Shown piece after piece: positions 11,751-64,000 of a stretch of DNA of 64,000 nucleotides (positions are counted from its first letter, which is position 1; the number at the start of each line of letters is the position of its first letter). Position numbers and translations under genes: made by a program. The notes under the pieces were generated by a model. That model was not told where the DNA came from, searched no databases, and saw only the letters and a program-made list of their open reading frames with translations. Source of the stretch: Streptomyces sp. CA-278952 (GTDB lineage: Bacteria; Actinomycetota; Actinomycetes; Streptomycetales; Streptomycetaceae). Where the stretch lies: the NCBI RefSeq assembly GCF_028747205.1, contig NZ_CP112880.1, positions 6,014,001-6,078,000 of the forward strand. The letters are read 5' to 3'.

Positions 11751-11974
11751 CTCTGGCTCCTCGCGAACGGCGGCCGGGGCCGCGGAACGGTGGGAAGCGC
11801 ACGGTCTGTGCGTGAGCCCATGGTGCGCCGTGCGCGCCGGATTTCGCAGTCGATCGATCGGGTGGTTCACCGGACCGCCCGGGCGCGGCCACCGCCCGGA
11901 TGCCCCGCGCCGCCCGCATGCCCCCGTCGGCCGGACGGCCGCCGCCCGGCCCACGACCCGTAGCCACTACAAGA

Positions 11975-11986
11975 CGATACGTATCG
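11975..11986. promoter_or_regulatory. Palindromic candidate operator for the adjacent TetR gene
   Basis: CGATACGTATCG is a perfect 12-bp palindrome located 26 bp before the start of the TetR gene at 12012 and between it and the divergent ddaH gene. Its position and symmetry suit autoregulation, and short perfect palindromes of this kind are common TetR operators. No binding data are visible. Confidence 0.6.
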
Positions 11987-12011
11987 GCTCGTTCGGCGTT
12001 AGATTGGGGGG

Positions 12012-12641
12012 ATGGCACCCACCAAGGCCCCCGACTCCAGCCGCCGCAGCGACCGTTCCCGCCGCGCGATCCACGACGCCGCCCTCGCCCTCGTCGGAGA
12101 GGTGGGGTACCGGCGCACGACGATCGAGGGTATCGCCGCCCGCGCCGGGGTCGGCAAGCAGACCATCTACCGCTGGTGGCCGTCCAAGGCGGCCGTGCTG
12201 ATGGAAGCCTTCCTCGACCTGGCGGGCCGGGCCGCGGAGGAGGCCGGACCGCAGTCCGGCGACGCCGCGCAGGGCATCCCCGACACCGGCGATCTGACCG
12301 CCGACCTCAAGCTCGTCCTGCGGGCCACCGTCGACGAGCTGAACGACCCGGCACTGGCGGTCCCCACCCGCGCGCTGACCGCCGAGGGCATCGTCGACGC
12401 GAAAGTGGGCGCCGAATTCGTCACCAAGCTGCTCGAACCGCAGCTCGAGCTGTATGTCACACGCCTGCGGGCCGCCCAGGAGGCCGGGGACCTGCGCGCC
12501 GACGCCGACCCCCGGATCGCCCTGGAACTGCTCGTCGGCCCGCTGATGCACCGCTGGCTGCTGCGGACCCTGCCGCTCACCCACACCTACGCCGACGCGA
12601 TCGTCGACTACACCCTCGGCGGGCTCACCCCGCGACCCTGA
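12012..12641 (+). CDS. TetR/AcrR-family transcriptional regulator
   Basis: This 209-aa repressor has an N-terminal helix-turn-helix: 'YRRTTIEGIAARAGVGKQTI' followed by 'YRWWPSKAAVLMEAF' at about residues 34-70. The C-terminal ligand domain is of the TetR_C_16 kind ('LLVGPLMHRWLLRTLPLT'). The start is ATG 12012 in a GGGGGG-rich leader. It lies divergent to ddaH with a palindrome between them, so it likely represses itself and perhaps ddaH. The ligand is unknown. Confidence 0.9.
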   Translation: MAPTKAPDSSRRSDRSRRAIHDAALALVGEVGYRRTTIEGIAARAGVGKQTIYRWWPSKAAVLMEAFLDLAGRAAEEAGPQSGDAAQGIPDTGDLTADLKLVLRATVDELNDPALAVPTRALTAEGIVDAKVGAEFVTKLLEPQLELYVTRLRAAQEAGDLRADADPRIALELLVGPLMHRWLLRTLPLTHTYADAIVDYTLGGLTPRP

Positions 12642-39196: not shown

Positions 39197-40579
39197 TCAG
39201 CGCCCCTCGGGCGCCGTCCCGGTCGCACCGCCGTACGTTCCGGGGGCTGCGCGGAAGCGGTTGATGGCGTCGAGGTGCTCGGCTCGCAACGTGTGATTGC
39301 GGACGCCCGTGCCTTCTTCGGGGGCGAGGGCGAGGACACCGATCTTGCCCTGGTGCACGTTGTGGTGGACGTCCCACGCCGCCCGGCCGGTGTCGGCGAG
39401 GTGGTACGTCCTGGACAGGGTCGGGTGGATCCTGCCCTTGGTGATGAGGCGGTTGGCCTCCCACGCCTCGCGGTAGTTGGCGAAGTGCGAACCGACGATG
39501 CGCTTGAGGGACATCCACAGGTACCGGTTGTCGTACTCGTGCAGATATCCGGAGGTGGACGCGCAGGTCACGATGGTGCCACCCTTGCGCGTGACGTAGA
39601 CGCTGGCGCCGAAGGTCTCGCGGCCGGGATGCTCGAACACCACGTCGACATCCTCACCGCCGGTGAGTTCGCGGATGCGCGCGCCGAACCGCTTCCACTC
39701 CTTGGGGTTCTGTGTCCGCTCGTCCTTCCAGAACTGGAAGCCCTCCGCGTTGCGGTCGATGACCGCGGTGGCGCCCATGGCCCGGCACAGCTCGGCCTTC
39801 CGCGCACTGGACACCACACAGACCGGGTTGGCGCCCCCCGCCAGGGCCAACTGCGTCGCATAGGAACCCAGGCCGCCGCTCGCTCCCCAGATGAGGACGT
39901 TGTCGCCCTGCTTCATGCCTGCTCCGTTGCGGGAGACCAGCTGACGGTAGGCGGTCGAGTTGACCAGTCCCGAGCTGGCCGCCTCTTCCCAGGTCAGGTG
40001 CTCCGGCTTCGGCATCAGTTGATTTGCCCTGACGAGCGAGATCTCGGCAAGGCCGCCGAAGTTGGTCTCGTAGCCCCAGATCCGCTGCTCGGGATCGAGC
40101 ATCGTGTCGTTGTGGCCGTCCGAACCCTCCAGGTCCACCGACAGGCAGTGCGCCACGACCCGGTCGCCGGGCCGCCACCGCCGTACGCCGGGGCCGGTGC
40201 GCAGTACGACACCGGCGACATCGGATCCGATGGCGTGGTAGTCCCGGTCGTGCCGTGCGGCCGAGCCGCCGGTCCGTGCGTACCGTTCCAGCAGCGCGAA
40301 GGTGGACACAGGTGTTCCGAGTGCGCTCCACACGGTGTTGTAGTTGATGGCACTCGCCATGACCGCGATCAGCACCTCGCCGACCTCGGGCTCCGGAGTG
40401 GGCACGTCCGCGAGGTGGACGGACTTCGTCGTATCACGTTCCCGCAGCGGTATGCCGTCGAATATGTCGCGCTCGTCACGGAACAGTACGGCGGCCTTGT
40501 GGGACTCGGGAATTTCCAGTGCGGCGAAGTCTTCAGTGACGGCGTCGGGAGACTCGACCACCTCAAGGATGTGCTGCAT
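39197..40579 (-). CDS. ccr: Crotonyl-CoA carboxylase/reductase
   Basis: This 460-aa medium-chain dehydrogenase converts crotonyl-CoA, CO2 and NADPH to ethylmalonyl-CoA, an extender unit for polyketides. It has the family layout: 'AINYNTVWSALGTPVSTF' early, 'IWGYETNFGGLAEISLV', the NADP site 'LIWGASGGLGSYATQLALAGG', and 'IVGSHFANYREAWEANRL' whose His helps bind CO2. The start is ATG 40579 behind AGAAAGG. The dehydrogenase gene at 37388-39079 follows it on the same strand, forming an ethylmalonyl-CoA operon transcribed away from the PKS. Confidence 0.95.
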   Translation of the reverse strand: MQHILEVVESPDAVTEDFAALEIPESHKAAVLFRDERDIFDGIPLRERDTTKSVHLADVPTPEPEVGEVLIAVMASAINYNTVWSALGTPVSTFALLERYARTGGSAARHDRDYHAIGSDVAGVVLRTGPGVRRWRPGDRVVAHCLSVDLEGSDGHNDTMLDPEQRIWGYETNFGGLAEISLVRANQLMPKPEHLTWEEAASSGLVNSTAYRQLVSRNGAGMKQGDNVLIWGASGGLGSYATQLALAGGANPVCVVSSARKAELCRAMGATAVIDRNAEGFQFWKDERTQNPKEWKRFGARIRELTGGEDVDVVFEHPGRETFGASVYVTRKGGTIVTCASTSGYLHEYDNRYLWMSLKRIVGSHFANYREAWEANRLITKGRIHPTLSRTYHLADTGRAAWDVHHNVHQGKIGVLALAPEEGTGVRNHTLRAEHLDAINRFRAAPGTYGGATGTAPEGR

Positions 40580-43737: not shown

Positions 43738-44598
43738 ATGACGGACAACAAGGGTGCGCCGCGACTCGCGGTGTTCGGCGCAGGAGTCATGGGCATCGGC
43801 ATCGCGACCCTCGCCGTCGGGCGAGGAGTGCCGGTCACGCTGGTGGATGTGGACCAGGCGCGCCTGGACACGGCACCGCAGCGCGTGCGGAGCGAGCTCA
43901 GACTCGCTCACATGATGGGAGCGCTACCACGGGGCGGACCGATCGGTGAGTTGCAGCTCGCCGGATCGTCCGTGGCCGCGGCGGACGCGACCTGGGTGAT
44001 CGAGGCGATCACCGAGGTCGCCGACCTCAAGGCCAAGGTGCACGGGGAGATCGCCGCCGCGGTCGCGCCCGGAACGCTGCGTGTCACCAACACCTCGTCC
44101 ATCCCCGTCGGCGAACTCGCCGACCAGGTCCCATCCCCCGAGGACCTGGTCGGCGTCCACTTCATGAATCCGCCGTACCTCATCGGCACCCTCGAGGTGA
44201 TCCGCGGTCCGCGCACCGGCGATGCGGCGATGTCCTCCGTCCGCGAGCTCCTGTCCACCCTGGACAGGAAGGGGGTCGTGGTCGGCGACGGACCGGGCTT
44301 CGTCACCAGCCGCGTACTGCACCGGATGATCAACGACGCGGCCAACGTCGTCGAGGAGGGCCGGGCCACCGTCGAGGACGTCGACGCCCTGATGGAAGGC
44401 TGCCTCGGACACCCGACGGGTCCGCTGCGGACCGCCGACCTGATCGGGATCGACAACCTCGTCGACTCCCTCCTGGTCCTGCACGAGCGCACCGGGGACG
44501 AGAGCTGCCGCCCGAGCGAACTGCTGCTGCGCAAGGTCGCCGAAGGCAACCACGGCCGCAAGACCGGCCGCGGTTTCTACGAGTACGGAGCCCACTGA
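43738..44598 (+). CDS. 3-hydroxyacyl-CoA dehydrogenase-like protein for methoxymalonyl-ACP (FkbK-like)
   Basis: This 286-aa protein has the Rossmann motif 'LAVFGAGVMGIGIATLAVGRG', then 'TNTSSIPVGEL', 'GVHFMNPPYLIGTLEVI' (catalytic His) and 'GFVTSRVLHRMINDAANVV'. It oxidises the hydroxyl of glyceryl-ACP in methoxymalonyl-ACP synthesis. Its partners follow directly: O-methyltransferase, ACP, acyl-CoA dehydrogenase and FkbH. The start is ATG 43738; the stop overlaps the next start by one base (TGATG). Confidence 0.9.
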   Translation: MTDNKGAPRLAVFGAGVMGIGIATLAVGRGVPVTLVDVDQARLDTAPQRVRSELRLAHMMGALPRGGPIGELQLAGSSVAAADATWVIEAITEVADLKAKVHGEIAAAVAPGTLRVTNTSSIPVGELADQVPSPEDLVGVHFMNPPYLIGTLEVIRGPRTGDAAMSSVRELLSTLDRKGVVVGDGPGFVTSRVLHRMINDAANVVEEGRATVEDVDALMEGCLGHPTGPLRTADLIGIDNLVDSLLVLHERTGDESCRPSELLLRKVAEGNHGRKTGRGFYEYGAH

Positions 44599-45287
44599 TG
44601 GCCGGCCAGGTGGAAGTCGACGAGAGCCTGCTCGACTACGTGCGGTCGGTGTCCCTGCGGGACGACGAGATTCTCCGCGACCTGGTCGCCGAGACGGCGT
44701 TCATGCCGGCGCTGAACGCCATGGTGACCATGCCCGAGGAAGGGCAACTGCTCGCCATGCTGGTCCGGTTGACCGGCGCGTCCCGGGTGCTGGAGGTCGG
44801 CACGTTCACCGGCTACAGCACGCTGTGCATGGCGCGTGCGCTGCCGCCCGGCGGGCGGATCATCACCTGCGACATCAGTGAGCGCTGGACCAAGGTGGCG
44901 CGGCGGTACTGGGAGCGCGCCGGCGTCTCCGACCGGATCGAACTGCGGCTCGGGGACGGCTCGGAGACCATGGGGACCCTGATCTCCGAGCACGGACCGG
45001 AGACCTTCGACCTGGTCTTCATCGACGCCGACAAACAGAGCTACGCGCGTTACTACGAAGAGGCGCTCACCCACCTGCGCCCCGGCGGCCTGATCGTGCT
45101 CGACAACACGCTCTACTTCGGCCGGGTCGTCGACCCGGACGCGGACGATCCCGACACCCGGGCCATCCGCGAACTCAACGCCTCGCTTCTCGACGACGAC
45201 AGGGTGGAACTGTCCCTCCTTGTCATGGCGGACGGCATCACGTTGCTGCGCAAGAACACAGTGGACCAAGAAGGGGACCTCTCATGA
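44598..45287 (+). CDS. Methoxymalonyl-ACP O-methyltransferase (FkbG-like)
   Basis: This 229-aa class I SAM methyltransferase of the catechol O-methyltransferase fold has SAM-binding 'RVLEVGTFTGYSTLCMARAL' and 'IITCDISERWTKVARRYWERAG'. It also has the metal/acidic 'VFIDADKQSYARYYEEAL' with 'LIVLDNTLYFGRVVD'. In the FkbG family it methylates the 2-hydroxyl of hydroxymalonyl-ACP. It overlaps the gene before by 1 bp and the ACP gene after by 4 bp (ATGA), so translation is coupled. It is unlikely to be a tailoring enzyme because it is inside the operon. Confidence 0.92.
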   Translation: MAGQVEVDESLLDYVRSVSLRDDEILRDLVAETAFMPALNAMVTMPEEGQLLAMLVRLTGASRVLEVGTFTGYSTLCMARALPPGGRIITCDISERWTKVARRYWERAGVSDRIELRLGDGSETMGTLISEHGPETFDLVFIDADKQSYARYYEEALTHLRPGGLIVLDNTLYFGRVVDPDADDPDTRAIRELNASLLDDDRVELSLLVMADGITLLRKNTVDQEGDLS

Positions 45288-45559
45288 CCGACTCGGCAAT
45301 CGACCTTCCGGTGGCCGCCATCGAGCAGCGCATCGGGGAGTTTCTTGAGTCGAAGACCAAGATGACCTGGGAGCCGGAGGTGGACCTGTTCGCCTCGGGC
45401 GCGGTCTCCTCGCTCTTCGCGATGGAACTGGTCGTGTTCGTGGAGAGCACGTTCGGCGTCACCGTGGAGGGCCCGGACCTCGCCATGGACAACTTCCGTA
45501 CGGTGCGGACCATGAGCACCCTGGTGACACGGCTGCGCAGTGGTGTCGAGAGTGCTTGA
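45284..45559 (+). CDS. Discrete acyl carrier protein for methoxymalonate (FkbJ-like)
   Basis: This 91-aa ACP has the phosphopantetheine attachment Ser in 'SGAVSSLFAMELVVFVE' (either Ser in the pair; the GAxSS context is usual for FkbJ-type ACPs rather than the LGxDS of PKS ACPs). It carries glyceryl- to methoxymalonyl groups between the enzymes of the pathway and delivers them to a PKS acyltransferase. The start ATG 45284 overlaps the methyltransferase stop. The stop overlaps the beginning of the next gene. Confidence 0.9.
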   Translation: MTDSAIDLPVAAIEQRIGEFLESKTKMTWEPEVDLFASGAVSSLFAMELVVFVESTFGVTVEGPDLAMDNFRTVRTMSTLVTRLRSGVESA

Positions 45560-46652
45560 CGTCCTGACCGCGCTGGTGACCGATACGGTCGCCGATGCCG
45601 CGAGCGAGTGGGACGTGGCGGGCGAGATCCCGGTCGATGTCCTCAGGGAATTGGGATCCAGGGGCGTGTTGTGCGCCGAGGCGAAACCGGAGTTCGGCGG
45701 TCTCGGCCTGTCCGGGACCGACAACGCCGAACTGACTGCCCACACCGGCGCGTTGTGCAGTTCGCTGCGCAGCGTGATGACCTCCCAGGGGATGGCCGCG
45801 TGGACGATCCAGCGGTTCGGCGACAAGGGCCAGCGAGTGGAGTACATCGGCCGGCTCACCCGTGGTGACCTGGCCGCGGTGGCGTTCAGCGAGCCCGGTG
45901 CCGGCAGTGATCTCGCCGCGATGAGCACGGAGATCCGGCGGGAGGGCGACGAGATCGTCGTCAACGGCACCAAGACCTGGATCACGGTCGCCGCCTACGC
46001 CGACTGGATCATCGTGTTCGGCCGGTACGAGGGTGGCGGCGCCGCGGTCGTCGTGCCCGCGTCGGCTCCCGGTGTCCGGGTGACGAAGGTGGCGGACCCG
46101 CTCGGCTGCCGCGCGGCCGGGCACGCCGCCGTGGTCCTCGACGACGTACGGCTGCCCGCGGAGAGCCTGCTCGCGGTGGCCGGTCAGCCGGTCGTCATGC
46201 TGACCACCATCGCTCTGACCTACGGCCGTCTCTCGGTGGCCTGGGGCTGCGTCGGCATCCTCCGCGCCTGTGTCGCGGCGGTCGCCCGGCATGCCGCCGA
46301 GCGGGAGCAGTTCGGTCAGCCCCTGCTGCGGCACCAGCTGGTCGCCAGGCACCTCGCCGAGCTCTACGCGGCGGAACGGACAGCGACGTTCGCCTGCGAG
46401 CAGGCGAGCCGCAGCTGGGAGAACAACTCGCCGGAGCAGGTGCCCGCGTCGGTCCTCGCCAAGCATGTCGCGGCCGGGAACGCCGCCCGCGGCGCGGCGT
46501 CGGCGGTGCAGGTGCTCGCCTCCGCGGGCGCGGCGGGCGGGCACGTGGTCGAACGGGCCTACCGCGACGCGAAGTTGATGGAAATCATCGAGGGCAGCAA
46601 CGAGATCTGCCAGCTGATCCTCGCCGAGCACGCGGCCTCGACGGTGGCCTGA
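45540..46652 (+). CDS. Acyl-CoA dehydrogenase for methoxymalonyl-ACP (FkbI-like)
   Basis: This 370-aa flavoprotein of the acyl-CoA dehydrogenase family has 'AAVAFSEPGAGSDLAAMSTE' and 'DEIVVNGTKTWITVAAYADWII' (flavin-binding strands), 'ALTYGRLSVAWGCVGI', and 'LMEIIEGSNEICQLIL', where the Glu of EGSNEI matches the catalytic-base region. It oxidises the hydroxyacyl-ACP intermediate further. The start is ambiguous among GTG 45540, 45543 and 45552, all overlapping the ACP end; 45540 is listed. The next gene follows after 25 nt. Confidence 0.9.
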   Translation: MVSRVLDVLTALVTDTVADAASEWDVAGEIPVDVLRELGSRGVLCAEAKPEFGGLGLSGTDNAELTAHTGALCSSLRSVMTSQGMAAWTIQRFGDKGQRVEYIGRLTRGDLAAVAFSEPGAGSDLAAMSTEIRREGDEIVVNGTKTWITVAAYADWIIVFGRYEGGGAAVVVPASAPGVRVTKVADPLGCRAAGHAAVVLDDVRLPAESLLAVAGQPVVMLTTIALTYGRLSVAWGCVGILRACVAAVARHAAEREQFGQPLLRHQLVARHLAELYAAERTATFACEQASRSWENNSPEQVPASVLAKHVAAGNAARGAASAVQVLASAGAAGGHVVERAYRDAKLMEIIEGSNEICQLILAEHAASTVA

Positions 46653-46677: not shown

Positions 46678-47769
46678 ATGTCAGAATCCCTACCGATCGT
46701 GAAGTGCCTCGTCTGGGACCTCGACAACACCCTGTGGAGAGGCACGCTCCTCGAAGACGGCCATGTGGAGGTCGACGACGCGATCCGCAAGGTCGTGACC
46801 GAACTCGACGCGCGGGGCGTGCTCCAGGCCGTCTCCAGCCGCAACGACCACGACGAGGCGTGGGGCCGGCTCGAAGAGCTGGGCCTGGCCGAGTACTTCG
46901 TCCTGCCGCACATCGGCTGGGGCCCCAAGTCCGACTCCGTGCGCAGGATCGCCGAGCGTCTGAACTTCTCGCTCAAGACGATCGCGTTCATCGACGACCT
47001 GCCCACCGAGCGTGCCGAAGTCGAATACCACCTTCCCGACGTCCGGACCTACTCGGCCGAGGACGCCGGCGCGCTCCTCGGCCTACCCGAGTTCAGCCCG
47101 CCGGTGGTCACGGTCGACGCCCGCCGACGCCGCGAGATGTACCGGGCCGGCTTCGAGCGGGAACTGGAGCGGGAGAAGCACGAGGGTGCCGACGAGGACT
47201 TCCTGCGCTCGCTCGACCTGGTGATGCGGATCGGGAAGGCCAGGGACGAGGAGATCACCAGGGTCGAGGAACTGACCCTGCGGACCAGCCAGATGAACGC
47301 GACGGGCGTGCACTACTCCGACGCCGCGCTGCGCTCGCTGCTGTCCGACGAGCAGCACGAGGTGCTGGTGGTTTCGCTGACCGACCGATTCGGACCGCAC
47401 GGGGCGGTCGGGGTCATGCTGATCGAGAAGACCGAACAGGCCTGGCGCATCAAGCTGCTGGCGACCTCGTGCCGTGTCGTCTCGTTCGGCGCGGGCGCGG
47501 TGCTGCTGCGGTGGCTCACCGACGCCGCCGCGCGGGCCGGTGTGCACCTCGTCGCCGACTTCAGGCGCACCGAGCGCAACCGGATGATGGAAGTGGCCTA
47601 CCGGTTCGCGGGGTTCACCACGGCGGAGTGTGCCTGTCTGTCCTCGTTCTCACTGCCCGAGGGGACCGAGTGCCTGCACCTCGAGGCCGTCCGGCAGGCT
47701 CCGCCGGTCACCATGCGCGTCTTCGCTCCTGAGCCGCTCGTCGGCGGGGCAGAGTCGGAATGGCTGTAG
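46678..47769 (+). CDS. fkbH: FkbH-like glyceryl-ACP synthase (HAD family)
   Basis: This 363-aa enzyme has an N-terminal HAD phosphatase domain ('CLVWDLDNTLWRGTLLEDG', nucleophile Asp) with 'LQAVSSRNDHDEAWGRLEELG' and 'TIAFIDDLPTERAEV'. A C-terminal GNAT-like domain includes 'TLRTSQMNATGVHYS' and 'LTDRFGPHGAVGVMLIE'. FkbH takes 1,3-bisphosphoglycerate and loads a glyceryl unit on the ACP, beginning the methoxymalonyl route. It starts at ATG 46678 after GGAGT. Last gene of the five-gene set, 58 bp before the SARP gene. Confidence 0.94.
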   Translation: MSESLPIVKCLVWDLDNTLWRGTLLEDGHVEVDDAIRKVVTELDARGVLQAVSSRNDHDEAWGRLEELGLAEYFVLPHIGWGPKSDSVRRIAERLNFSLKTIAFIDDLPTERAEVEYHLPDVRTYSAEDAGALLGLPEFSPPVVTVDARRRREMYRAGFERELEREKHEGADEDFLRSLDLVMRIGKARDEEITRVEELTLRTSQMNATGVHYSDAALRSLLSDEQHEVLVVSLTDRFGPHGAVGVMLIEKTEQAWRIKLLATSCRVVSFGAGAVLLRWLTDAAARAGVHLVADFRRTERNRMMEVAYRFAGFTTAECACLSSFSLPEGTECLHLEAVRQAPPVTMRVFAPEPLVGGAESEWL

Positions 47770-49862: not shown

Positions 49863-52800
49863 ATGGAGAACGAGGCCAGGCTGCGCAACTACCTCAAGCA
49901 GGCTGTCGGGGAGTTGCAGGAGACCCGTGACCGTCTGCACGAGATGCAGCGGGCCGCCGTCGAGCCGATCGCGATCGTCGGCATGGCTTGCCGCTTCCCG
50001 GGCGGAGTCGTCTCGCCCGACGGGCTGTGGGAGCTGGTGGCCGACGGCCGGGACGCGGTCGGGGACTTCCCCACCGACCGCGGATGGGACATCGAAGGGC
50101 GGTACGACCCGAACCCCGGCGTGCCGGGCAGCTTCTACGCCCGGGGCGGCGGATTCCTCCACGACGCGGCCGAGTTCGACGCCGACTTCTTCGGGATCTC
50201 CCCGCGGGAGGCCCTGGCGATGGACCCCCAGCAGCGCCTGCTGCTGGAGACCTCGTGGGAGGCCCTGGAACGGACCGGCATGGACCCGCAGTCCCTGCGG
50301 GGCAGCGACGTCGGCGTGTTCGTCGGGCTGATGGGCCACAGCGGCCAGCACTACGGGCTCGGAGCCGAGGAGTCCGGGCAGGGCGGTGACGGGTTCGGCG
50401 GTACCGGCAGCGCGGCCAGTGTCGCCTCCGGCCGGATCTCCTATCTGCTGGGCCTGGAGGGGCCGACGCTGACGGTCGACACCGCCTGCTCGTCCTCGCT
50501 GGTCACCATGGACCTGGCGAGCCGAACCCTGCGCGCGGGGGAGTGCTCCCTCGCGCTGGCCGGCGGTGCCGCGGTCATGCCCAGCCTCGACACGTTCGTG
50601 GATTTCTCACGCCAGCGCGGACTGGCCGAGGACGGCCGCTGCAAGGCGTTCTCGGCGGCAGCGGACGGCACAGGGTGGTCCGAGGGCGCGGGAATGCTGG
50701 TGCTGGAGCGGCTCTCGGACGCCGTACGGCTCGGCCACCCCGTCCTCGCCGTGATCCGGGGCAGCGCGGTCAACTCCGACGGTGCCTCCAACGGTCTGAC
50801 CGCGCCCAACGGGCCGTCCCAGCAGCGAGTCATCCGCCGCGCACTGGCCAACGCCGGCCTCGCCCCGTCCGAGGTGGACGCGGTGGAGGCCCACGGTACG
50901 GGAACCAGTCTCGGCGACCCCATCGAGGCGCAGGCGCTCCTCGCGACCTACGGCCGGGAACGACCCGCCGACCAGCCGCTCTGGCTGGGGTCGCTGAAGT
51001 CCAACATCGGGCACTCCCAGGCCGCCGCCGGTGTCGGCGGCGTGATCAAGATGGTGCAGGCGCTCCGGCACGGTCTGCTGCCGAAGACGCTGCACGTGGA
51101 GGAGCCGACACCCGCCGTGGACTGGGCGTCCGGCCCGGTCGAACTGCTCACCGAAGCACGGGCCTGGCCCGAGACGGGCCGACCGCGCCGGGCCGCGGTC
51201 TCGGCTTTCGGGATCAGCGGCACCAACGCCCACCTGATCATCGAGCAGGCACCCGAACCCGAGCCCGTACCGGAGGCCGACCCGGCCCCGGAGGCCCCCG
51301 CGCACACCGCGGTGCCACTGCTGCTGTCCGCCTCGTCGGCGACGGCGCTCGCGGCCAGGGCCCGGCAGGTGCACGCCCACATCACCGCCCACCCCGACGC
51401 ACCCGTGGCGGGCGCCCTCGCCACCAGCGCGCCGCAGCTGCCGCACCGCGCGGCCGTCACCGGCGACGACCCGCTGCCGGGACTCCAGGCGCTCGCCGAC
51501 GGGCGGCCGTTCCCGGACGTACTGCTCGGCACCGCGCGCCCGCACGGCAAGAAGGTGTTCGTCTTTCCGGGCCAGGGATCGCAGTGGTCGGGCATGGCGC
51601 TCGACCTGCGCCGCGAATCCGACGTCTTCCGCGCCCAGTTCGACAGCTGCGCCGCCGCCCTCGCCCCCCATGTCGACTGGAACCTCCTCGACGAACTCGC
51701 CGGGCCGCTCGACCGGGTGGACATCGTGCAGCCCGCCCTGTGGGCCGTCATGATCTCCCTGGCCGCGCTGTGGGAGCACTACGGCGTGGCCCCCGACGCC
51801 GTGATCGGCCACTCCCAGGGCGAGATCGCCGCGGCGTACGTGGCCGGCGCGCTCTCCCTCGAAGACTCCGCCGCCGTCGTCGCCCTGCGGAGCAAGGCCA
51901 TCACACGTCTGGCCGGCACCGGCGGTATGGGGTCCGTCCAGCTCTCCGCCGCCGAGACGGCGCTGCGCATCGAGCGGTACGAGGGCAAGGTGGAGATCGC
52001 CGCGGTCAACGGGCCCGGCAGCACGATCGTGTCCGGCACCCCCGCCGAACTGGCGGACCTCGTCGAGGTCTGCGAGGCCGACGGCGTACGCGCGCGGCTC
52101 ATCCCCGTGGACTACGCCTCGCACTCGGCACACGTCGAGGCCCTGCGGGACGAGATCATCGAGTCCCTGTCCGGCGTCACACCCCGCTCCACCCGGATCC
52201 CGTTCCACTCGACGGTCACCAACGAGATACTGGCCGGCCCGGAACTGGACGCCGAGTACTGGGTCCGCAACCTGCGCCACACCGTCAACTTCGCCGCGGG
52301 TACCAGCCGGCTCCTGGAACAGGGGCACCGGGTGTTCGTCGAGGTCAGCGCGCACCCCGGGCTGACGGCGGCCATCGGCGCGACGGCCGAGGAGGCAGAG
52401 GTCTCCGACGTGGTCGTCCTGGACTCGCTGCGCCGGGACGACGGCGGTCCGACGCGTCTGCGCACCGCACTGGCCAAGGCGTACGTGCACGGCGTCGACA
52501 TCGACTGGCACCTTCCGTCCACCCGGGCGGGGCTGCCGACGTACCCGTTCCAGCGCGCCCGTTACTGGCTGCTGGAGACCGCCGGGGCCGGGGACACCGC
52601 CGCGCTGGGGCTGCGGCCCGCCGACCACCCGCTGCTGGGCGCGGCCCTGCGCACGGCGGACGCGGACACACTCGTCCTCACCGGACGGCTTTCCCGCACC
52701 GCCCGGCCGTGGCTGGCCGATCACGGGGTCGGCGACTCGGTGCTCCTGCCCGGTACCGCGATGGTGGAGCTGGCCCTGCACGCCGGGGACCAGGTCGGAT

Positions 52801-55800
52801 GCGGGCACCTGGCCGAGCTGACCCTGCACGCGCCGGTCGTCCTCGACGCCGACCTGGACCTCCAGGTGGTGATCGGCTCGGACACCGGTGACGGACGGCC
52901 GGTGAGCGTGTACACGGCTGCGAGCGGGAAGGACGACTGGACCCGGAACGCCGACGGCCTCCTGACCGCCGAAGAGCCCGGGACACCCGACGAACTGGCC
53001 TCCTGGCCCCCGCCGGGCGCGGTCGCCGTGCCGGTGGACGGGTTCTACGAGGCCCTCGCCGACCGCGGTTACCTCTACGGGCCTGCCTTCCAGGGCCTGC
53101 GTGCCGCCTGGCAGGACGGCGACGTGCTCTACGCGTCGGTCAAGCTGCCGGAGGAGCAGGAGGTCACCGGCTTCGGCCTGCACCCCGCGCTGCTCGACGC
53201 GTCGCTGCACGCGGCGGGCCTGGCCGAGGCGGACAGCGTCCGCATACCGTTCAGCTGGACCGACGTACACCTGTACGCCACCGGTGCCAGGACGGTCCGG
53301 GTGCGTCTCTCCCCGGCCGAGTCCGGGGCGGTCGCCGTACTCGTGACCGACGAGTCCGGACAGCCCGTCGCCTCCGTCGGGGGGCTCGTGCTGCGGCCGG
53401 TGGACACGGCGGCACTTGGACGGACGCGCACGGACGTCTCGGCTCTGTTCGGCCTGGACCTGGTGCCCGTGGAGCTGCCCGACGCGCCCGCGGAACAGGA
53501 GTGGGTGACGCTGGCGGCCGACGGCGGCGACCGCCCGGCCCCGTCGTCGCCGGCGACCGGCGCCCTGTGGACGTGCCCCACCGGAGACCTCGAAGAGGTC
53601 GTCGCCCGGACACTCGACGTGGTGCGGGACTGGCTCGCCGAGGAACACCTCGACACGGTCCCGCTCACCGTACTCACCCGCGCCGACGACCTCACCCACC
53701 GTGCCGTCACCGGTCTGCTGCGCACCGCGCGTACCGAGAACCCGGGCCGGCTGCGGCACATCGACGCCGACGGCCATCCGTTCACGCTGAGCGCCCTGCC
53801 CGCCGCGATGGCCGCCGGTCATCCGGAACTGGTCCTGCACGGAGGACTCGCCGCGGTGCCGCGACTCGTCCGCGCGGCCGCGTCGCCGGCGCTGGTGGAG
53901 CCGCGGGACCAGCCGTGGCAGCTCTCCCTCACCTACCGCGGCGAACTCGACGGCATGTCGCTCAGCCCCTGCCCCGAGGCCCTGCGTCCCCTGGAGACGG
54001 GCGAGGTACGGATCGAGGTCCGCGCGGGCGGCCTGAACTTCAAGGCCGTCCTGCTGGAACTCGGCATGGTGGCGCCCGACGAGTGGTCGTCGCTGGGCGA
54101 GGGCGCGGGCATCGTGCGCGAGGTGGGTCCCGGCGTCACCGGGCTGGTTCCCGGCGACCGGGTGATGGGCCTGTTCACCGGCGGCCTGGGTTCGGTCACC
54201 GTCTCCGACCGCAGGCTCGTTGTCCCGATGCCCAAGCGGCTGTCCTTCGCACAGGCCGCCGGTGTTCCGGTGGTGTACCTGACGGCGTACTACGGCCTCG
54301 CCGATCTGGCCGGGCTCCGGTCGGGAGAATCGCTGCTCCTGCACGCCGCGACCGGCGGTATGGGCTTCGCCGCACTGCAGCTCGCCCGGCACTGGGGCGT
54401 CGAGGTGTTCGGAACCGCCAGCTCCGGCAAGCGTGACGCACTGCGCGCCTGGGGCTTCGACGACGATCACCTCGCCGACTCCCGCAGCCTGGGTTACGCC
54501 GATCACTTCGCCGCCGCCACCGGCGGTCGCGGCGTGGACGTGGTGCTCAACTCACTGGCGAACGAGCACGTGGAAGAGTCGCTGGCCCTGCTGCCGCGCG
54601 GCGGCCGGTTCGTGGAGATGGGCAAGACCGACATCCGCGACGCCGAGGAGATCGCCGAGCGGTTCCCCGGTGTGAGCTACCGGGCGTTCGACGTGATGGA
54701 AGCGGGCTTCGACCGCCTCGGGGAGATGCTGGAGGAGATCCGGGTCCTGTTCGACGCGGGCGCGCTCCGGCCGATGCCCTTGACCACGTACGCCGTGCAC
54801 CGGGCACCGGAGGCGTTCCGCTACCTCAGCCAGGCACGGCACGTGGGCAAGATCGTCATGACGCTGCCCACACCCCTCGACCCCGACGGTACGGTGCTGA
54901 TCACCGGCGGTACCGGGGTGCTCGGCGGAGTCGTCGCCCGGCACCTGGTCGCCGAACACGGCGTACGCCGACTGCTGTTGACGAGCCGGCGCGGCCCGGC
55001 GGCCGAGGGCGCGGACGAACTGGCCGCAGAGCTGCGGGCGGCGGGTGCCGACGTCTCGGTCGTGGCGTGTGACGTCACCGACCGCAAGTCCCTCACGGAC
55101 GTGGTGAGTTCGGCCCACCGGCTGACCGGAGTGATCCATGCGGCCGGAGCGCTCTCCGACGGCGTACTGGAAGCCCTGACCCGGGACGACCTCGACACCG
55201 TCCTGCGGACGAAGGCGCGGTCGGCATGGGACCTGCACGAGCTGACCCAGGAGCACGACCTCTCCCTGTTCGTGCTGTTCTCCTCGGCCGCCGGCGTGCT
55301 GGGCAACGCGGGCCAAGGCGGGTACGCCGCTGCCAACGCCTACCTCGACGGTCTCGCGGAACACCGGCGCGGCAGGGGACTGCCCGGCACGTCGATCGCT
55401 TGGGGCCTGTGGGAGCAGGTCAGCGCGATGACGAGCCATCTGGGCGACGCGGGCCGGGACCGGGTGTCCCGGATGGGCCTGGGCGCCATCAGTGACGAGC
55501 AGGGGCTGGCCCTGTTCGACGCCGCACTCCGATTCCACCGCTCGCTGGCGGTCGCGGTGCCGCTCGACGTGGCCCGCCTGCGGCTGAGCGGCCACCCGGT
55601 GCCCGACGTGCTGTCCGCCCTGGAGCCGGCGGCGCCGGCCCGGCGACGGGTGGCGGAGTCGGCGGCCGAGGCGGCACGGACGGACCGGTTCCTCGGACTG
55701 GCCCCGGCGCAGCGGCGCGCCGAACTGCTGCGACTGGTACGGGAGTCGGCGGCGGTCGTGCTCGGGCACGGCACGGCGGATGCGATCGACGGGGACGGCA

Positions 55801-56168
55801 CCTTCAAGGAACTCGGGTTCGACTCACTGACCGCGGTGGAACTGCGCAACCGGCTGGGCAACGCCACTGGGCTGCGGCTGCCGCCCACCGTCGTGTTCGA
55901 CCATCCGACATCGGCCGAGCTCGCCGGGTTCCTCGACGAACTGCTCGTACCGACCGAGGAGACGACCGTGCGGTCGGTCGTGGCGGAACTCGACCGGCTG
56001 ACCGTCGCACAGCTCGACGAGAGCGAGCGGGGCGAACTCACCAAGCGGCTGCAGGAGGTTCTCCGTCGACTGGCGGCGCCCGTCGACGGGGGAGAGGAGC
56101 GGGACCTCGCCGCGGCCTCCGACGACGAACTCTTCGACTTCATCGACAGCGAACTCGACACCGCCTGA
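49863..56168 (+). CDS. Type I modular PKS, one fully reducing module (KS-AT-DH-ER-KR-ACP)
   Basis: This 2101-aa PKS starts at ATG 49863 behind GGAGGAG. Domains: N-terminal docking coiled coil 1-34; KS 35-460 (Cys209, His344, His384); AT 565-850 with Ser651 in 'GHSQGE' and YASH at 751-754, a methylmalonyl signature; DH from 922 (His954, Asp1112; the H-loop '[10 protein letters not shown]' has Asp where Gly is usual); ER about 1376-1671 ('[19 protein letters not shown]' from 1494); KR 1676-1860 (Ser1808, Tyr1821, Asn1825; 'LSDGVL' keeps one Asp of the B-type LDD signature); ACP Ser1988; C-terminal docking helices to 2101. It adds one fully reduced, methyl-branched unit. It is not a loading module. 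Confidence 0.94.
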
Positions 56169-56202: not shown

Positions 56203-59200
56203 ATGTCCACCAACGAGCAGAAGCTTCGAGAGTACCTGCGGCGGGTCACGACGGACCTGCGGCGTGCCCAGCGGGAACTGCGCGACGCTGACGCAGCCGC
56301 ACACGAGCCGATCGCGATCGTTGGTATGGCAAGCCGCTTCCCGGGCGGCGCCGGCACCCCCGAGGAACTGTGGGAGCTGGTCCGCGACGGTCGGGACGCC
56401 CTCACGGACTTCCCGACCGACCGGGGGTGGGACCTCGACCGGCTGTACGACCCCGATCCCGACGCACCGGGCACCACGTACCTCACGCGGGGCGGGTTCC
56501 TTTCCGACGCGGCCGACTTCGACGCGGGGTTCTTCGGGATCTCGCCGCGCGAGGCACTGGCGATGGACCCGCAGCAGCGGCTGCTGCTGGAGACCTCGTG
56601 GGAGGCCCTGGAGAACGCCCGCATCGACCCGGCGTCGCTCAGGGGCACCGACACCGGTGTGTTCGTCGGCGTGGTCCCGCAGGAGTACATGCCCCGGGCG
56701 GGGGCGGCCCCCGAGGAGTTGGAGGGCTTCGTCCTCACCGGTGGCACCACCAGTGTCGCGTCGGGCCGGATCTCCTACTCCCTGGGCCTGCTGGGGCCGA
56801 CGATGACGCTGGACACGGCCTGCTCGTCGTCACTGGTGTCGATCCATCTGGCGGAGCAGGCCCTGCGGGGCGGCGAGTGCGAGATCGTCCTGGCGGGCGG
56901 CGTCACCGTGATGTCCGGGCCCAGTGTGTTCGTGGGATTCTCCCGGCAGCGCGGGTTGGCTGTGGACGGTCGGTGCAAGGCGTTCGCGGCGGCGGCTGAC
57001 GGGACCGGTTTCTCCGAGGGTGTGGGGATGCTGGTGCTGGCGCGGTTGTCGGTGGCGCGGGAGCGCGGGCTGCCGGTGCTGGGTCTGGTGCGGGGCAGTG
57101 CGGTGAACTCCGACGGTGCGTCCAACGGGCTGACCGCGCCCAGCGGTCCTTCCCAGCAGCGGGTCATCCGCTCGGCGCTGGCCAACGCCGGTCTGTCGCC
57201 CGCCGAGGTGGATGTGGTGGAGGCGCACGGCACGGGCACCGCGTTGGGTGACCCGATCGAGGCGCAGGCACTTCTGGCGACGTACGGCCGGTCCCGGCCG
57301 GACGGTCAGCCGCTGCTGCTGGGTTCGCTGAAGTCGAACATCGGGCACACCCAGGCGGCGGCCGGTGTGGGCGGTGTGATCAAGATGGTCATGGCGATGC
57401 GGCACGGTGTGGTGCCCAGGACGCTGCATGTGGATGAGCCGTCGCCCGCGGTGGACTGGTCGGCGGGAGCGGTCGAACTGGTCACCGAGGAACAGCCCTG
57501 GCCGGAGACCGGCCGGCCCCGCCGCTCCGCGGTCTCCTCCTTCGGTATCAGTGGGACGAACGCGCACGTCGTCCTGGAGCAGGCACCGGCGACCGCGCCG
57601 CCGTCCGAGGCGACGCCCGAGTCGCCGTCCGAGGCGACGCCCGAGTCGGCGTCCGCGTCGGCACCCGAGTCGGTGTCCGCGTCGGCACCCGCTTCCTCCG
57701 TGTCGCTTCCGGTGGTGCCGGTGGTGGTGTCGGGGCGTTCGGCGGGGGCGTTGCGGGAGGCTGCGGGTCGTCTGGCGGGTGTGGTGTCGGGCGGTGGTGT
57801 GGGTGTGCTGGATGTGGGGTTGTCGGCTGCGGTGTCGCGGTCGGTGTTCGAGCATCGTGGTGTGGTGCTGGCTTCGGGGTGTGAGGAGCTGGTGGCGGGG
57901 TTGCGGGTGTTGGCGGACGGTGGGTCTGCCGGTGGTGTGGTGTCGGGTGTGGCGGGTGAGGGCCGTGTGGGTGTGCTGTTCACCGGTCAGGGTGCGCAGT
58001 GGGCGGGGATGGGCCGGGAGCTGTACGAGGGGTTCCCGGTGTTCGCGGAGGCGTTCGACGAGGTGTGTGCGGGGTTCGACGGGCTGGTGCCGGGTTCGTT
58101 GCGGGAGGTGGTGTTCTCCGGTGCGGGGCTGGATGAGACGGGGTGGACGCAGCCGGCGTTGTTCGCGGTGGAGGTGGCGTTGTTTCGTCTGGTGCGGTCG
58201 TGGGGGGTGGGGGCGGACTGTGTGACGGGTCATTCGGTCGGTGAGCTGGCGGCGGCCTATGTGGCGGGTGTGTGGTCGCTGGCGGATGCATGCCGGGTGG
58301 TGGCGGCGCGGGGCCGGCTGATGCAGGCGTTGCCCGCGGGTGGGGCGATGGTGGCGGTCCGGGCCGGGGAGGCGGAGGTCGCCGAGTTGCTGGTGGGGCT
58401 GGAGGACAGGGTCGGTCTGGCGGCGGTCAATGGTCCGTCGTCGGTGGTGGTCTCGGGTGCGGAGTCGGCGGTCGGGGGTGTGGTCGGGGTGCTGGCCGGG
58501 CGGGGAGTGAAGACGAACCGGCTGTCGGTGTCCCATGCGTTTCATTCGCCGTTGATGGATCCGGTGCTGGAGGAGTTCGCCGCGGTGCTGGAGGGGGTGG
58601 AGTTCTGTGAGCCGTCGGTGGAGATGGCGGCGGATGTGGCGGATGTGTGTTCGGTGGGGTATTGGGTTGATCATGTGCGGGAGCCGGTGCGGTTCGCGGA
58701 TCAGCTGGTGCGGTTGCGGGAGCGGGGGGTGACCACGTTCCTGGAGGTCGGTCCGGACGGTGTGCTGAGCGCGATGGGTCCGCATGTGGTGGCGGACGGG
58801 GTGTTCGTGGCGGTGCAGCGGCGGGAGCAGCCGCAGGTGGTGACCGCGTTGACGGCGTTGGCGCGGGTCCACGCGGCCGGTCACGGGGTGGACTGGGCGC
58901 GGGTGTTCACCGGGACCGGGGCCACACTGGTCGACCTGCCGACCTACCCCTTCCAACACCAGCCCTACTGGATGCTGGAGAACTCCTCCGGCGGTGTCGT
59001 CTCGGCGGGCCAGACGGCCGCGAGCCACCCCATGCTGGACGCCGTCGTACGGGTCGCCGGCGCCGACGAGGTCGTGTTCACCGGCCGCCTCTCGGCACGG
59101 ACACACGCCTGGATCACCGAACACGAGCTGGGCGGCCGGGCCCTGGTGCCCGGCACCGCGCTGCTCGACATGGCGCTCTGGGCCGGCGACGAGACCGGCT

Positions 59201-62200
59201 GCGCCGGCGTGGCCGAGATGGTCGTCGCCGCGCCGCTGGTCCTTGCCGCGACCGGCGGGGTGCGCGTCCAGGTCGTCGTGAAGGAACCGCAGGAGAACGG
59301 AGACCGGCCGTTCGCGATCCACTCCTGCCGGGAGAACGAGGACGAGTGGGTCTGCCACGCCACCGGCACGCTGGCCTCCTCGTCCCCGGCGCCGGGCTTC
59401 GAACTGAGTGCGTGGCCGCCCGCCGGCGCCGAACCCGTGGAGACGGACGGCTTCTACGACCGGCTCGCGGAGGGCGGCTACGTCTACGGCCCGGTCTTCC
59501 GCGGGCTGCGGACACTCTGGCGCCGAGACGCCGCCGACGGCGCCGAGTTCTTCGCCGAAGTGGCGCTTCCGGACCGTACGGACGTCACGGGATTCGGGAT
59601 CCATCCCGCCCTGTTCGACGCGGCCATCCACCCCCGGGTCGTCGCCGCGATCACGGACGCGGGCGACGACTTCACCCTGCTGCTGCCGTTCGTGTGGAGC
59701 GGCATCAGCCTCTACGCCACCGGTGCGACCGCACTGCGGGTCCGGGTCCTCATCGACAACGAGACCGAGGGCGGCACATCCTGCCTGGTCCAGTTCGCCG
59801 ACGAGGCGGGCCGGCCCGTGGGCGAGGTCCGGTCGGTGGAAGCCCGCCCGGTGTCGGCCGACCGGTCCGCCGCGCGGGAGGCGACGACGGGCTCGCTCTT
59901 CGGCGTGGACTGGAACCCGGCCGAGGTGGCGCCGACCGAGCCCGCAGGACGCTGGGCCCTGATCGGCTCTCCCGACTGGCCGGCCGGCGATGTACTGGCG
60001 CTCGACCGCCAGGCGACGCTGCCGGACGCGGTCGGGGCCGATGTACTGGTCGTGGCCTGTGCCGGACAGCCCGGCGCCGATCCCGTCGAGTCGGTGCACG
60101 ACACGACGGCCCAGGTACTGGAACTGCTGCGCGAGTGGCTGGCCGACGACCGGTTCCTGTCGAGTCGCCTCGTCGCGGTGACCCGCGGCGCGGTGGTCAC
60201 CGGGGAGAACGACGCCGATCCTGACCTGGCGGGCGCCGCGGTGTGGGGCCTGCTGCGGTCGGCGCAGGCGGAGCACCCCGACCGGATCGTGCTGGCGGAC
60301 GTCGACGACGACCCGGCCTCGCTCCTGGTCCTGCCCGCCGTGCTGGCGGCCGGCCACGACCAGGTCGCGATACGCGCGGGTGCGGTGACCGTGCCCCGCC
60401 TGGCACCGCGCTTCCCGGTGGAGGTGGTGCGGCCGGAGGTGGCGGCCGAGGGCACGGTCCTGGTCACCGGCGGAACCGGCGCGCTGGGCTCCCTGTTCGC
60501 CCGGCACCTGGTCACCGACTACGGCGTACGCCACCTGCTGCTCACCAGCCGACGCGGCGACAACGCCCCCGGCGCCACCGAACTCGCGGCCGAACTCACC
60601 GCCCTGGGCGCCACCGTCCGCATCACCGCCTGCGACGCCGCCGACCGCACCGCCCTCGCCGCCCTCCTCGACACCGTCCCCCCAGAACACCCCCTCACCG
60701 GCATCGTCCACACCGCCGGCATCATCGACGACGGCATCATCACCGCCCTCACCCCCGACCGCCTCACAACCGTCCTCCGCCCCAAGGCCGACGCCGCCTG
60801 GCACCTCCACGACCTCACCCGCGACCAACCCCTCACCCTCTTCGTCCTGTTCTCCTCGCTCGCCGGCACGCTGGGCAACGCGGGTCAGGCCAACTACTCG
60901 GCGGCCAACCACTTCCTCGACGCGCTCGCACAGCACCGCCGGGCGAACGGGCTTCCCGCCTTCTCGCTCGGCTGGGGTCTGTGGGCCGCCGAGGGCGGCA
61001 TGCAGGCAGGGGCCAGTACCGCCACGTCCGAGAAGCAGCGGCAGTCGGGCCTCCGGCCGCTCTCCGCGGAGAGCGGTACGGCGCTCTTCGACCGGGCGGT
61101 GGCGTCCAGCGACCCGGTGGCGCTGCCGGCCGACCTGGACCTGCGGGCGCTGCGGTCCGGTTCGGGCCGGGTTCCCTCGATGCTGCGCAGCCTGGCCGGA
61201 CGTTCGGCCCGCCGGGTGGTGGGGCAGGGCGCAGGTGACCAGCAGGCGCTGGCCGCCCGGCTGGCCGCACTGGCGCAGCCCGAGCGGCGTGAGCACGTCG
61301 CCGACCTGGTACGCACCGCCGTGGCCACGGTGCTCGGGTTCGGTGCGGGCGAGCGGATCAGCGAGACCGTGCCCCTGCGCGAGCTGGGCTTCGACTCGCT
61401 GACCGGGGTCGAGCTGCGCAACCAGCTGATCGCGTCCACCGGCCTCCAGCTGTCGCCCGGCCTGGTGTTCGACTATCCGACGGTCTCGGCGCTCGCCGAG
61501 TACCTGCTGTCCGAACTGAGCGGTGAACTGCCGGATCGGGCCGCGGCCGTGGCCGCGTCCGTCCCGGGCCCCGGGGGCGCCAACGACCCCATCGCGATCG
61601 TCGGGATGGCCTGCCGCTTCCCCGGCGGGGCCAACACGCCCGAGGGGCTGTGGAAGCTGATCGCGGACGGCGTGGACGCGATATCGGACATGCCCGACGA
61701 CCGCGGCTGGGACATCGAGCAGCTCTGGGACCCGGACCCCGACAAGCCGGGCACGTTCTACCCGCGCGAAGGCGGATTCGTCCACGACGTCGCCGACTTC
61801 GACGCCGGCTTCTTCGGGATCTCCCCGCGCGAGGCGCAGGCACTCGACCCCCAGCAGCGGCTGCTGCTGGAGACCTCGTGGGAAGCGCTGGAGAGCAGCG
61901 GCATCGACCCGCTCTCGCTGCGGGGGAGCAACACGGGCGTCTACACCGGACTGACCGACCAGAGCTACGGCGCGGGCGCCGGCACGGCCGAGGGCGGCAC
62001 GGAGGGCTATCTGCTCAGCGGCTCGACCCCGTCCTTCGGTTCCGGCCGGGTCTCCTACGTCCTCGGGCTGGAAGGCCCGACGATGTCCATCGACACGGCG
62101 TGCTCGTCGGTCCTGGTCTCGATGCACCTCGCCGCGAACGCGGTGCGCAGCGGTGAGTGCTCCCTCGCACTCGCCGGCGGTGCGACGGTGATGGCACAGC

Positions 62201-64000
62201 CCATTGGGTTCGTCGAGTTCTCCCGCCAGCGGACGCTCGCACCCGATGGACGGTCCAAGGCGTTCGCCGAGTCCGCGGACGGTACCGGCTGGTCGGAGGG
62301 CGTCGGCCTGTTCATCCTGGAACGGCTGTCCGACGCCCGACGGAACGGGCACCCGGTGCTCGCCGTGCTCAAGGGCAGTGCGGTGAACTCCGACGGTGCG
62401 TCCAACGGCCTGACCGCGCCCAACGGCCCCTCCCAGCAGCGGGTCATCCGGCAGGCGCTGGCCAACGCCGACCTGGCGCCGACCGAGGTGGACCTCGTGG
62501 AGGCGCACGGGACCGGCACCCGGCTCGGCGACCCGATCGAGGCCGAGGCCCTGATGGCGACCTACGGCAGGGACCGGCCGGTGGACCGCCCGGTCTGGCT
62601 GGGGTCGGTGAAGTCGAACATCGGACACACCCAGCACGCCGCCGGCGCGGGCGGGCTGATCAAGGCGGTCATGGCCATCCGGCACGGCCTGATGCCGAAG
62701 ACCCTGCACGCGGAGGAGCCGACGTCCGCGGTCGACTGGTCCTCGGGTGCGATGCGGCTGCTGACCGAGACCCGCCCGTGGCCCGAGCTGAACCGGCCGC
62801 GCCGGGCCGCGGTGTCCGCGTTCGGCATGAGCGGCACCAACGCGCACGTCATCCTGGAGCAGGCCCCCGACGAGCCCGCCGCCTCCCCTGCGGACAGTGG
62901 GGCGTCCCTGCCGGCGGTGCCGTGGGTGCTGTCGGCCAAGACGCCGCAGGCGCTGCGCGCGCAGGCCACGCGGTTGTCGTCCCTGGTGGACTCCGACGCC
63001 GCCCCGGACCCGCTCGACATCGGGTTCTCCCTCGCGACCCGGTCGGTGTTCGATCACCGCGCGGTGCTCGTCACCGGCGATGCCGCACAGACCCTGGCCG
63101 GGCTGCGGGCGATCGCCGAGGACGAGGCGCCCGCGGCCCGGGACGGCCGGACCGCGTACCTGTTCACCGGCCGCTCCATGGAGGGACCGGACCCGGAGCT
63201 GTACGCGACCGCGCCGGTGTACGCGAAGGCCTTCGACGAGGTACTGGCCGAACTCGGCGGACAGAAGGACGGGTTGGTCCTCCTCGCCGCCGAGGTGGCG
63301 CTGTTCCGCCTGGTCGGGTCCTGGGGTGTCACGTTCGGCTGTGTCGCCGGAACCGGGGCCGGTGAGATCGCCGCCGCGTACGCCGCCGGGGCGCTCTCGC
63401 CGGCCGACGCGGCACGGCTGATGGCCGAGGACGGGCCCGACGTGACGTTCACCGAACCGCGGATACCGGTGCTGTCGCTGCGCACCGGCCGGCCGGTCAC
63501 CGCCGGCGACCCGCTGGGGCTGCCCGGGTCGGAGGGGATCGCCGACGCCGAGCGGTGGATGCACGAACAGCGTGTGACCCGGTTCGCCGAGTCGGGCCCC
63601 GGGCGCGTACGCGAAGGGTCGGTGCTCCTGCGACGCGACGACCAGCCGGGCGTCCGCGCGGTCCTCGACGGTGTGGGCGGCCTGTTCGTCGCCGGCGCGG
63701 CCGTCGACTGGACTGCCGTGTTCGCCGGGACCGGCGCCGGCCGGACCGAGCTGCCCACCTATCCCTTCCAGCGCGACCGGTACTGGCTCGCCGCGTCGAC
63801 CGGCGACGGCGACTCCGTCCCCGACCCCGGCTCCGGGCACGCGCTGCTCGGCGCGGCCGTCGCGGTGGCGAGCCGGGACGAGCTGGTGTTCACCAGCCGC
63901 CTGTCGCTCACCACGCACCCCTGGCTGGCGGACCACGTCGTCTCCGGTGTGCCGGTGCTGCCCGGGTCCGCCCTGGTGGAGCTGGCGATCCGGGCCGGCG
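56203..64000 (+). CDS. Type I modular PKS, at least two modules (3' end outside window)
   Basis: The frame is open from ATG 56203 to the window end (2599 codons seen). Module A: docking 1-32; KS 34-463 (Cys207, His342, His382); a Ser/Ala/Pro/Glu repeat linker 467-500; AT 587-880 (Ser678 in 'GHSVGE'; 'HAFH' 778-781, malonyl type); DH from about 943 (His974, Asp1139); KR from 1417 (Ser1552, Tyr1565, Asn1569; 'IDDG' suggests B-type); ACP Ser1732. No ER. Module B: KS 1796-2225 (Cys1967, His2102, His2142); a shrunken AT at about 2317-2465; linker '[13 protein letters not shown]'; then the start of a DH (His2578) cut by the edge. N-terminal docking means another PKS precedes it, probably the 49863 gene. 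Confidence 0.93.
57603..57700 (+). repeat. Tandem Ser/Ala/Pro/Glu-coding repeats in the KS-AT linker
   Basis: Repeated units coding SEATPES and SASAPES types lie in the inter-domain linker of module A. They probably arose by slippage and only extend the flexible linker. Confidence 0.8.
63151..63606 (+). other. Degenerate, apparently inactive AT domain (AT0) in module B
   Basis: The region codes residues about 2317-2467 of the second PKS. It retains the beginning '[12 protein letters not shown]' (where GQG has become GRS) and '[18 protein letters not shown]'. The active-site segment GHSxGE is 'GTGAGE' (2383-2388), so the nucleophile Ser is Gly2385 and the His before it is Thr. From the FTG strand to the C-terminal 'ESGPG' there are 142 residues, against 259 in the AT of module A. 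The whole small subdomain carrying HAFH/YASH is missing. The frame is intact and the post-AT linker is normal. Confidence 0.85.

Follow-up and report, generated by a model that had tools for sequence, protein, structure and literature searches.

A decayed acyltransferase in one module of a cis-AT polyketide synthase line and a discrete acyltransferase of the same cluster as its candidate partner

A single module of a textbook cis-AT polyketide synthase (PKS) line in Streptomyces sp. CA-278952 appears to have swapped its own acyltransferase (AT) for a separate enzyme and a different building block. We consider it on balance probable that this module, module B of PKS2, is an elongating, non-reducing penultimate module whose acyl carrier protein (ACP-B) is loaded in trans by a discrete AT, most likely with methoxymalonyl, in the synthesis of a cyclic-imine product. 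The trans loading, the methoxymalonyl unit, the gene order and the product are all inferred. Loading by a trans-acting AT is usually regarded as a property of the whole assembly line.

Results

The AT of module B is reduced to a remnant

The window, the whole stretch of 64,000 nucleotides that was analysed, covers G000:C1:6014001-6078000 on one 8.2-Mb contig and contains most of the PKS2 gene. The relevant features, in window coordinates, are as follows.

56203..64000, continuing to 66579 from the window start, + strand: PKS2 gene, modules A and B, open frame of 3458 aa
61591..62877, + strand: module B ketosynthase (KS), Cys-His-His intact
62878..63156, + strand: KS-AT linker domain of module B, with boundaries placed by us
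63157..63636, + strand: AT remnant of module B, without GQG, the nucleophile Ser (GTGAGE at 63349) and the His-bearing subdomain
63835..64000, + strand: start of the module B dehydratase (DH), HPWLADH retained; catalytic Asp replaced by Glu past the window edge

PKS2 passes the window edge and ends at position 6080579 of the contig. Module A has the organization KS-AT-DH-KR-ACP, and module B comprises a KS, the short AT, a DH, a ketoreductase (KR), an ACP and a C-terminal docking stretch.

Positions 63151-63606, corresponding to residues 2317-2468 of the 3458-aa protein, had been described in an earlier note as an AT that has lost GQG (now GRS) and the nucleophile Ser. Motif reading confirms both losses, with FTGRSM at the FTGQG position and GTGAGE at the GHSxGE position. 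The reported loss of the specificity motif also holds, as no HAFH/YASH-like motif was found in module B, and the frame is open throughout the AT without a break, in agreement with the claim that no frameshift lies behind its short form. Comparison with other ATs of the cluster, as the note had proposed, gives an FTG-to-VDW distance of 183 residues (2321-2503) versus 312-329 in five intact ATs, namely the discrete AT and four from modules (the ATs of PKS2A and PKS5 were left out because the pattern missed both). The AT is thus shortened as claimed, by some 130-145 residues rather than about 117. The Pfam profile PF00698 scores 30.1 bits on this domain, below its cut-off of 32.7, and covers positions 64-113 of 319; this is the sole sub-cut-off match among the 28 PF00698 AT matches in the genome. 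The module B AT lacks the nucleophile Ser of GHSxG, the catalytic His region and the profile score expected of a catalytically active PKS AT domain. In our reading the remnant is of the malonyl type and, to judge from its motifs, module B's own malonyl-type AT is decayed beyond use.

The remainder of module B indicates a non-reducing module

The KS of module B contains the Cys and both His residues, as the earlier note had stated, and past the window edge the ACP retains its Ser. By motif, module B thus combines the lack of a functional AT with an intact KS and ACP, as in an AT-less module served in trans, and its KS and ACP are probably functional. The two reductive-loop domains are both degenerate: the DH reads HPALLEAAVQ, with Asp replaced by Glu, and the KR reads GQANFASAN, with Tyr replaced by Phe. 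The DH is accordingly not the normal one that had been claimed, and the view that a single domain is broken while the rest of the module is normal does not stand, since KR and DH also lack catalytic residues. This turns a "defective module" into a "non-reducing module", one that by its motifs is dead for reduction. Apart from module B, no module of the line has a Tyr-less KR, and of the seven modules it alone is missing its AT.

Conservation of module B in seven genomes

Six other genomes hold the cluster, with short-AT identities of 82% in G160, 73-75% in Embleya scabrispora DSM 41855, 69% in G473, 68% in G350, 68% in G423 and 49% in the divergent G333 (G160 and Streptomyces sp. CHD11 share coordinates, and by the same criterion G392 and G413 are both identical to E. 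scabrispora DSM 41855). The genus draw gave matches at E 1e-30 in 25 of 392 genomes, our own included, at 48 places, 30 of which became loci. Four of these belong to this cluster and 24 have GHSxG and HAFH; of the remaining two, G309 has an eroded AT from an unrelated line and G219 is truncated where its contig ends. A scan of 84,980 species returned 139 stretches, and among the best 80 of the 139, identity above 49% was confined to CHD11 and E. scabrispora.

The KS Cys, both KS His residues and the ACP Ser (GFDSL) of module B are present in all seven genomes, and no HAFH/YASH-like motif occurs in module B of any of them. GTGxGE replaces GHSxGE in six; G333 alone retains GHSTGE. This last genome (L154, 3-6059) has a less eroded AT, in which the His-bearing subdomain and part of GQG are missing, and its cluster genes lie on two contigs in a different order. 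The KR has lost a catalytic residue in 7/7 genomes: Tyr is replaced by Phe in six, and G333 retains Tyr but has Ser in place of Asn, so that its module B KR is presumed inactive and would leave a ketone there as well. In the DH, Asp is replaced by Glu in all six genomes that have the domain; in G423 (L204) an in-frame deletion has removed it from its place between the AT remnant and the KR. The earlier note had held that a family of active ATs of this short form would speak against its reading. The form does constitute a family, but each of its seven members lacks the catalytic His region.

Remnant identity is 62-79% in the five other genomes with the same short form and 41% in G333, with its smaller related gap. 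A sequencing or assembly error that dropped about 350 bp is excluded for all practical purposes by the recurrence of the gap in these five genomes and of the smaller one in G333.

Pooled over pairs of the six close orthologues (Nei-Gojobori), omega is 0.20 for the KS, 0.21 for the ACP and 0.30 for the catalytic part of the KR, compared with 0.56 for the AT remnant (bootstrap 0.43-0.72) and 0.59 for the linker (0.39-0.91). The KS and ACP of module B are strongly conserved, and the AT remnant is relaxed yet still constrained. In the three pairs covering both domains, the remnant evolves faster (0.56-0.70) than the intact AT of module A (0.26-0.30), as would be expected if the entire cluster were decaying, made nothing and contained the short AT as a pseudodomain. 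We regard such a decay as very improbable, given the low omega of the KS and ACP, a remnant value whose bootstrap range lies below 1, and a frame that stays open through to the end of module B in every one of the seven genomes (in G160, E. scabrispora and G333, the end of a contig or of the fetched record truncates the part upstream).

Organization of the cluster

The cluster extends from roughly 37.4 kb to 100.7 kb from the window start. Besides PKS2, it includes the following features (window coordinates unless a contig position is given).

37388..39079, - strand: 3-hydroxyacyl-CoA dehydrogenase with two NAD-binding domains
39197..40579, - strand: crotonyl-CoA carboxylase/reductase, ethylmalonyl-CoA supply (TIGR01751, 576.2 bits, cut-off 378.55)
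43738..44598, + strand: 3-hydroxyacyl-CoA dehydrogenase, which we take to belong to the methoxymalonyl-ACP set
44598..45287, + strand: O-methyltransferase, methoxymalonyl-ACP set
45284..45559, + strand: stand-alone ACP, presumed methoxymalonyl carrier
45540..46652, + strand: acyl-CoA dehydrogenase, methoxymalonyl-ACP set
46678..47769, + strand: FkbH-type protein (TIGR01686, 367 bits, cut-off 146.65)
49863..56168, + strand: PKS1, KS-AT-DH-ER-KR-ACP, AT motif YASH
G000:C1:6113353-6114675, - strand: stand-alone AT of 440 aa, in the same cluster as PKS2

PKS3 starts with a KSQ-type (DTAQSS) loading module, extension modules are found on PKS4, PKS1 and PKS2, and PKS5, on the opposite strand, terminates in a thioester reductase (PF07993). 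The AT motif is YASH in the loading module, PKS3 module 1 and PKS1, and HAFH in PKS4, PKS2A and PKS5; the ATs of PKS2A and PKS5 are both of the malonyl type. A 953-aa protein with an aminotransferase domain (PF00202), an acyl-CoA-dehydrogenase-like flavoprotein, an MFS exporter and a thioesterase are also encoded. The terminal thioester reductase and the aminotransferase are those of an argimycin-type polyketide alkaloid synthase. The proteins probably act in the order PKS3-PKS4-PKS1-PKS2-PKS5, and with the reductase on PKS5, module B would be the penultimate module. Homologues of the aminotransferase (45% over the whole protein) also occur beside stand-alone ketosynthase genes in G311 (L189-L192) and G194 (L193-L194), in a different, alkaloid-like locus.

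A discrete AT accompanies the cluster

The search of the genome for a discrete AT that had been suggested earlier led to the stand-alone, catalytically complete AT listed above, encoded 36 kb downstream of module B. Its orthologues are stand-alone frames of 440-479 aa in 7/7 cluster-bearing genomes, all with the active-site motifs GQG, GHSQGE and FAAHS, and they form one clade in a tree of 28 AT stretches (branch support not examined). Their place and orientation relative to PKS2 vary. The gene lies within the cluster in our genome, G350 and G333, and on the same contig as the cluster in G423 and G473; in G160 and E. scabrispora it is on a separate contig, and these two were left out of the same-cluster judgement. 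In the 392-genome genus draw (E 1e-135, four best candidates per genome), the four cluster-bearing genomes alone yielded stand-alone frames, and the seven other matches, in six other genomes, were inside PKS frames of 2235-5070 aa. An FkbH homologue is likewise present in all seven cluster-bearing genomes. The co-occurrence of the eroded AT and the discrete AT in seven genomes represents one inherited cluster, not seven independent events.

With respect to its substrate, the discrete AT combines a signature motif, whose meaning is a published prediction, with the methoxymalonyl genes, as expected of a methoxymalonyl-ACP-specific AT: a genome-mining study gives FAAH for an AT from which it predicts a methoxy branch (PMC8944477). 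In the tree, the closest three ATs with FAGH (G094, G296, G350) lie 38-54 kb from homologues of the methoxymalonyl-set methyltransferase and FkbH; for three YASH ATs of the same match list (G165, G096, G055), the distance to the closest such homologue listed is 370 kb to 2.1 Mb. This is a small comparison of three with three, in which the FAGH clusters may hold other methoxymalonyl-using ATs. The embedded FAAH AT of G150, from an assembly in 1380 contigs, was left out of this check. Among solved structures, the best sequence match of the discrete AT is the modular-PKS AT 6iyr, whose substrate is presumably ethylmalonyl. The FAAH motif suggests methoxymalonyl, with the transfer itself a prediction. 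Of the unusual supply by methoxymalonyl or ethylmalonyl genes that the earlier note had envisaged, it is the methoxymalonyl part that gains support from this motif.

The module 1 AT of PKS3 (L032, 72494-81028 from the window start) reads GNSQGE instead of GHSQGE in our genome and in G160, and GHSQGE in G350. This AT might be another client of the discrete AT.

Loading of module B by other enzymes

Module B could also elongate with ACP-B loaded by a neighbouring AT (PKS2A or PKS5) or by FabD, the discrete AT serving something else. Such loading has been described: aureothin AT4 is undersized, marked inactive and replaceable by AT3 (PMC6916388), and an AT-null DEBS module 6 was rescued by malonyl-CoA:ACP transacylase (PMC6164871). 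The malonyl type that we assign to the remnant favours this route, and our genome has FabD-sized frames with an AT match, of 343 and 369 aa.

Lines that lack this discrete AT can have eroded ATs as well. In G309:C655 (L042, L208), an unrelated PKS fragment carries an eroded AT (FTGTVR, without GHSxG or HAFH) behind a KS with Cys and both His residues, and no match to the discrete AT was found in this genome at E 1e-135. A short AT without relation to this one (GCGVGE) occurs in a PKS of Streptomyces fuscichromogenes (L073:3388-4464), where the KR and DH motifs are intact, and Saccharopolyspora spinosa (L084:7425-8612 and 11036-12292) has a GHSIGE AT without the His region and a GHSQGE AT with an internal deletion before its GAHS motif. 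The only AT frames below 671 aa in the latter two genomes are of 323, 364 and 376 aa. These lines may depend on FabD, on the AT of a neighbouring module or on skipping, and the same could hold for module B.

However, the discrete AT is kept in all seven cluster genomes, with no other AT-less module to need it, and loading by a neighbouring AT or FabD would leave the methoxymalonyl genes without an AT of the reported signature within the line. We therefore rate such loading as unlikely. Among the options raised in the earlier note, namely loading by another AT, skipping or a different role, the discrete enzyme is the one that its position 36 kb downstream and its presence in 7/7 genomes support, and we favour it.

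Proposed role of module B

A lone AT-less module, a lone module-less AT and a dedicated methoxymalonyl-ACP supply fit together. The discrete AT would take methoxymalonyl from the stand-alone carrier protein of the cluster and load ACP-B, and KS-B would condense this unit. With KR-B and DH-B dead, the keto group would be retained. One further extension would be followed by reductive release and transamination. Counting the released aldehyde as C1, module B would supply C3-C4 and fix C5 as a ketone; the C1 amine, formed by the terminal reductase and the aminotransferase, would then close on the C5 ketone to give a six-membered cyclic imine, with the methoxy group at C4, adjacent to the imine carbon. 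In aureothin, the KR Tyr has been replaced by Phe to obtain a KR null (PMC6916388). For argimycin, the authors propose that the ketone of the piperidine ring comes from a module with an inactive KR that directly precedes the last, reductase-bearing module (PMC5300972), and module B, as the only module of this line with a Tyr-less KR, matches that position.

The loss of catalytic residues from AT, KR and DH alike, together with the deletion of the DH in one lineage, is also what a passive relay from KS-B to ACP-B would show, with no extension and module B kept only for the hand-over from PKS2 to PKS5; module skipping is documented in modular PKSs (PMC6916388, PMC5082578). The condensing-His loss of a non-elongating KS0-type module is not seen, however: EAHGTGT and NIGH/NLGH, which carry the His residues for decarboxylative condensation, are kept in 7/7 genomes. 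Skipping would also remove the C5 ketone required for amine closure, and two lineages differ in which catalytic residue their KR is missing, a pattern to be expected where the ketone has to stay unreduced (the inactivity in G333 being presumed). A relay is improbable in our estimation, and an elongating module B loaded by the discrete AT is retained as the preferred reading.

The genomes can be arranged by stage of erosion. G333 lacks the His-bearing subdomain and part of GQG, the six others also lack the Ser and GQG, and one of these six has in addition lost the DH. Docking remnants are thought to serve as landing sites in trans-AT lines. A more tentative reading, which we put forward as a possibility only, is that these stages form a natural series of transition from cis-AT to trans-AT with a change of building block, in which the constrained remnant, with its predicted fold, would be the landing site for the discrete methoxymalonyl AT.

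Discussion

Undersized inactive ATs, engineered rescue of AT-null modules in trans and discrete ATs for unusual units are already known. What seems to be new is that they come together in a single module of a cis-AT line, with apparent intermediates in relatives; we found no precedent for this in the open-licence literature. If the proposed role is true, module B would be a natural model for the replacement of an AT in trans, which PKS engineers have attempted manually, and the origin of trans-AT modules would become directly testable. The predicted product is a methoxylated cyclic-imine alkaloid encoded in seven genomes.

Module 4 of the aureothin PKS likewise has an undersized, inactive AT in a working cis-AT line (PMC6916388). 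In that line a neighbouring module's AT can take over, whereas the cluster of module B encodes a stand-alone AT, and catalytic residues are missing from the KR and DH of module B as well. OzmC of oxazolomycin, reported to be methoxymalonyl-ACP specific, KirCII of kirromycin and ZmaF of zwittermicin (PMC6164871) are, like the AT described here, discrete enzymes for a non-malonyl unit, in our case a predicted one. These three are listed in that source under trans-AT pathways, in contrast to the present line, in which six other modules have their own AT and module B retains AT remains. Argimycin P (ArpP/ArpN) and coelimycin-type synthases share with this cluster the terminal reductase and the aminotransferase. 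Their module before the last has a KR and a DH that the authors take as inactive, so that it would provide the ring ketone (PMC5300972), and module B would be its counterpart if it is indeed penultimate. ATs with GHSxG and HAFH are described in the same source, whereas the present cluster adds methoxymalonyl and ethylmalonyl supply and has lost one AT.
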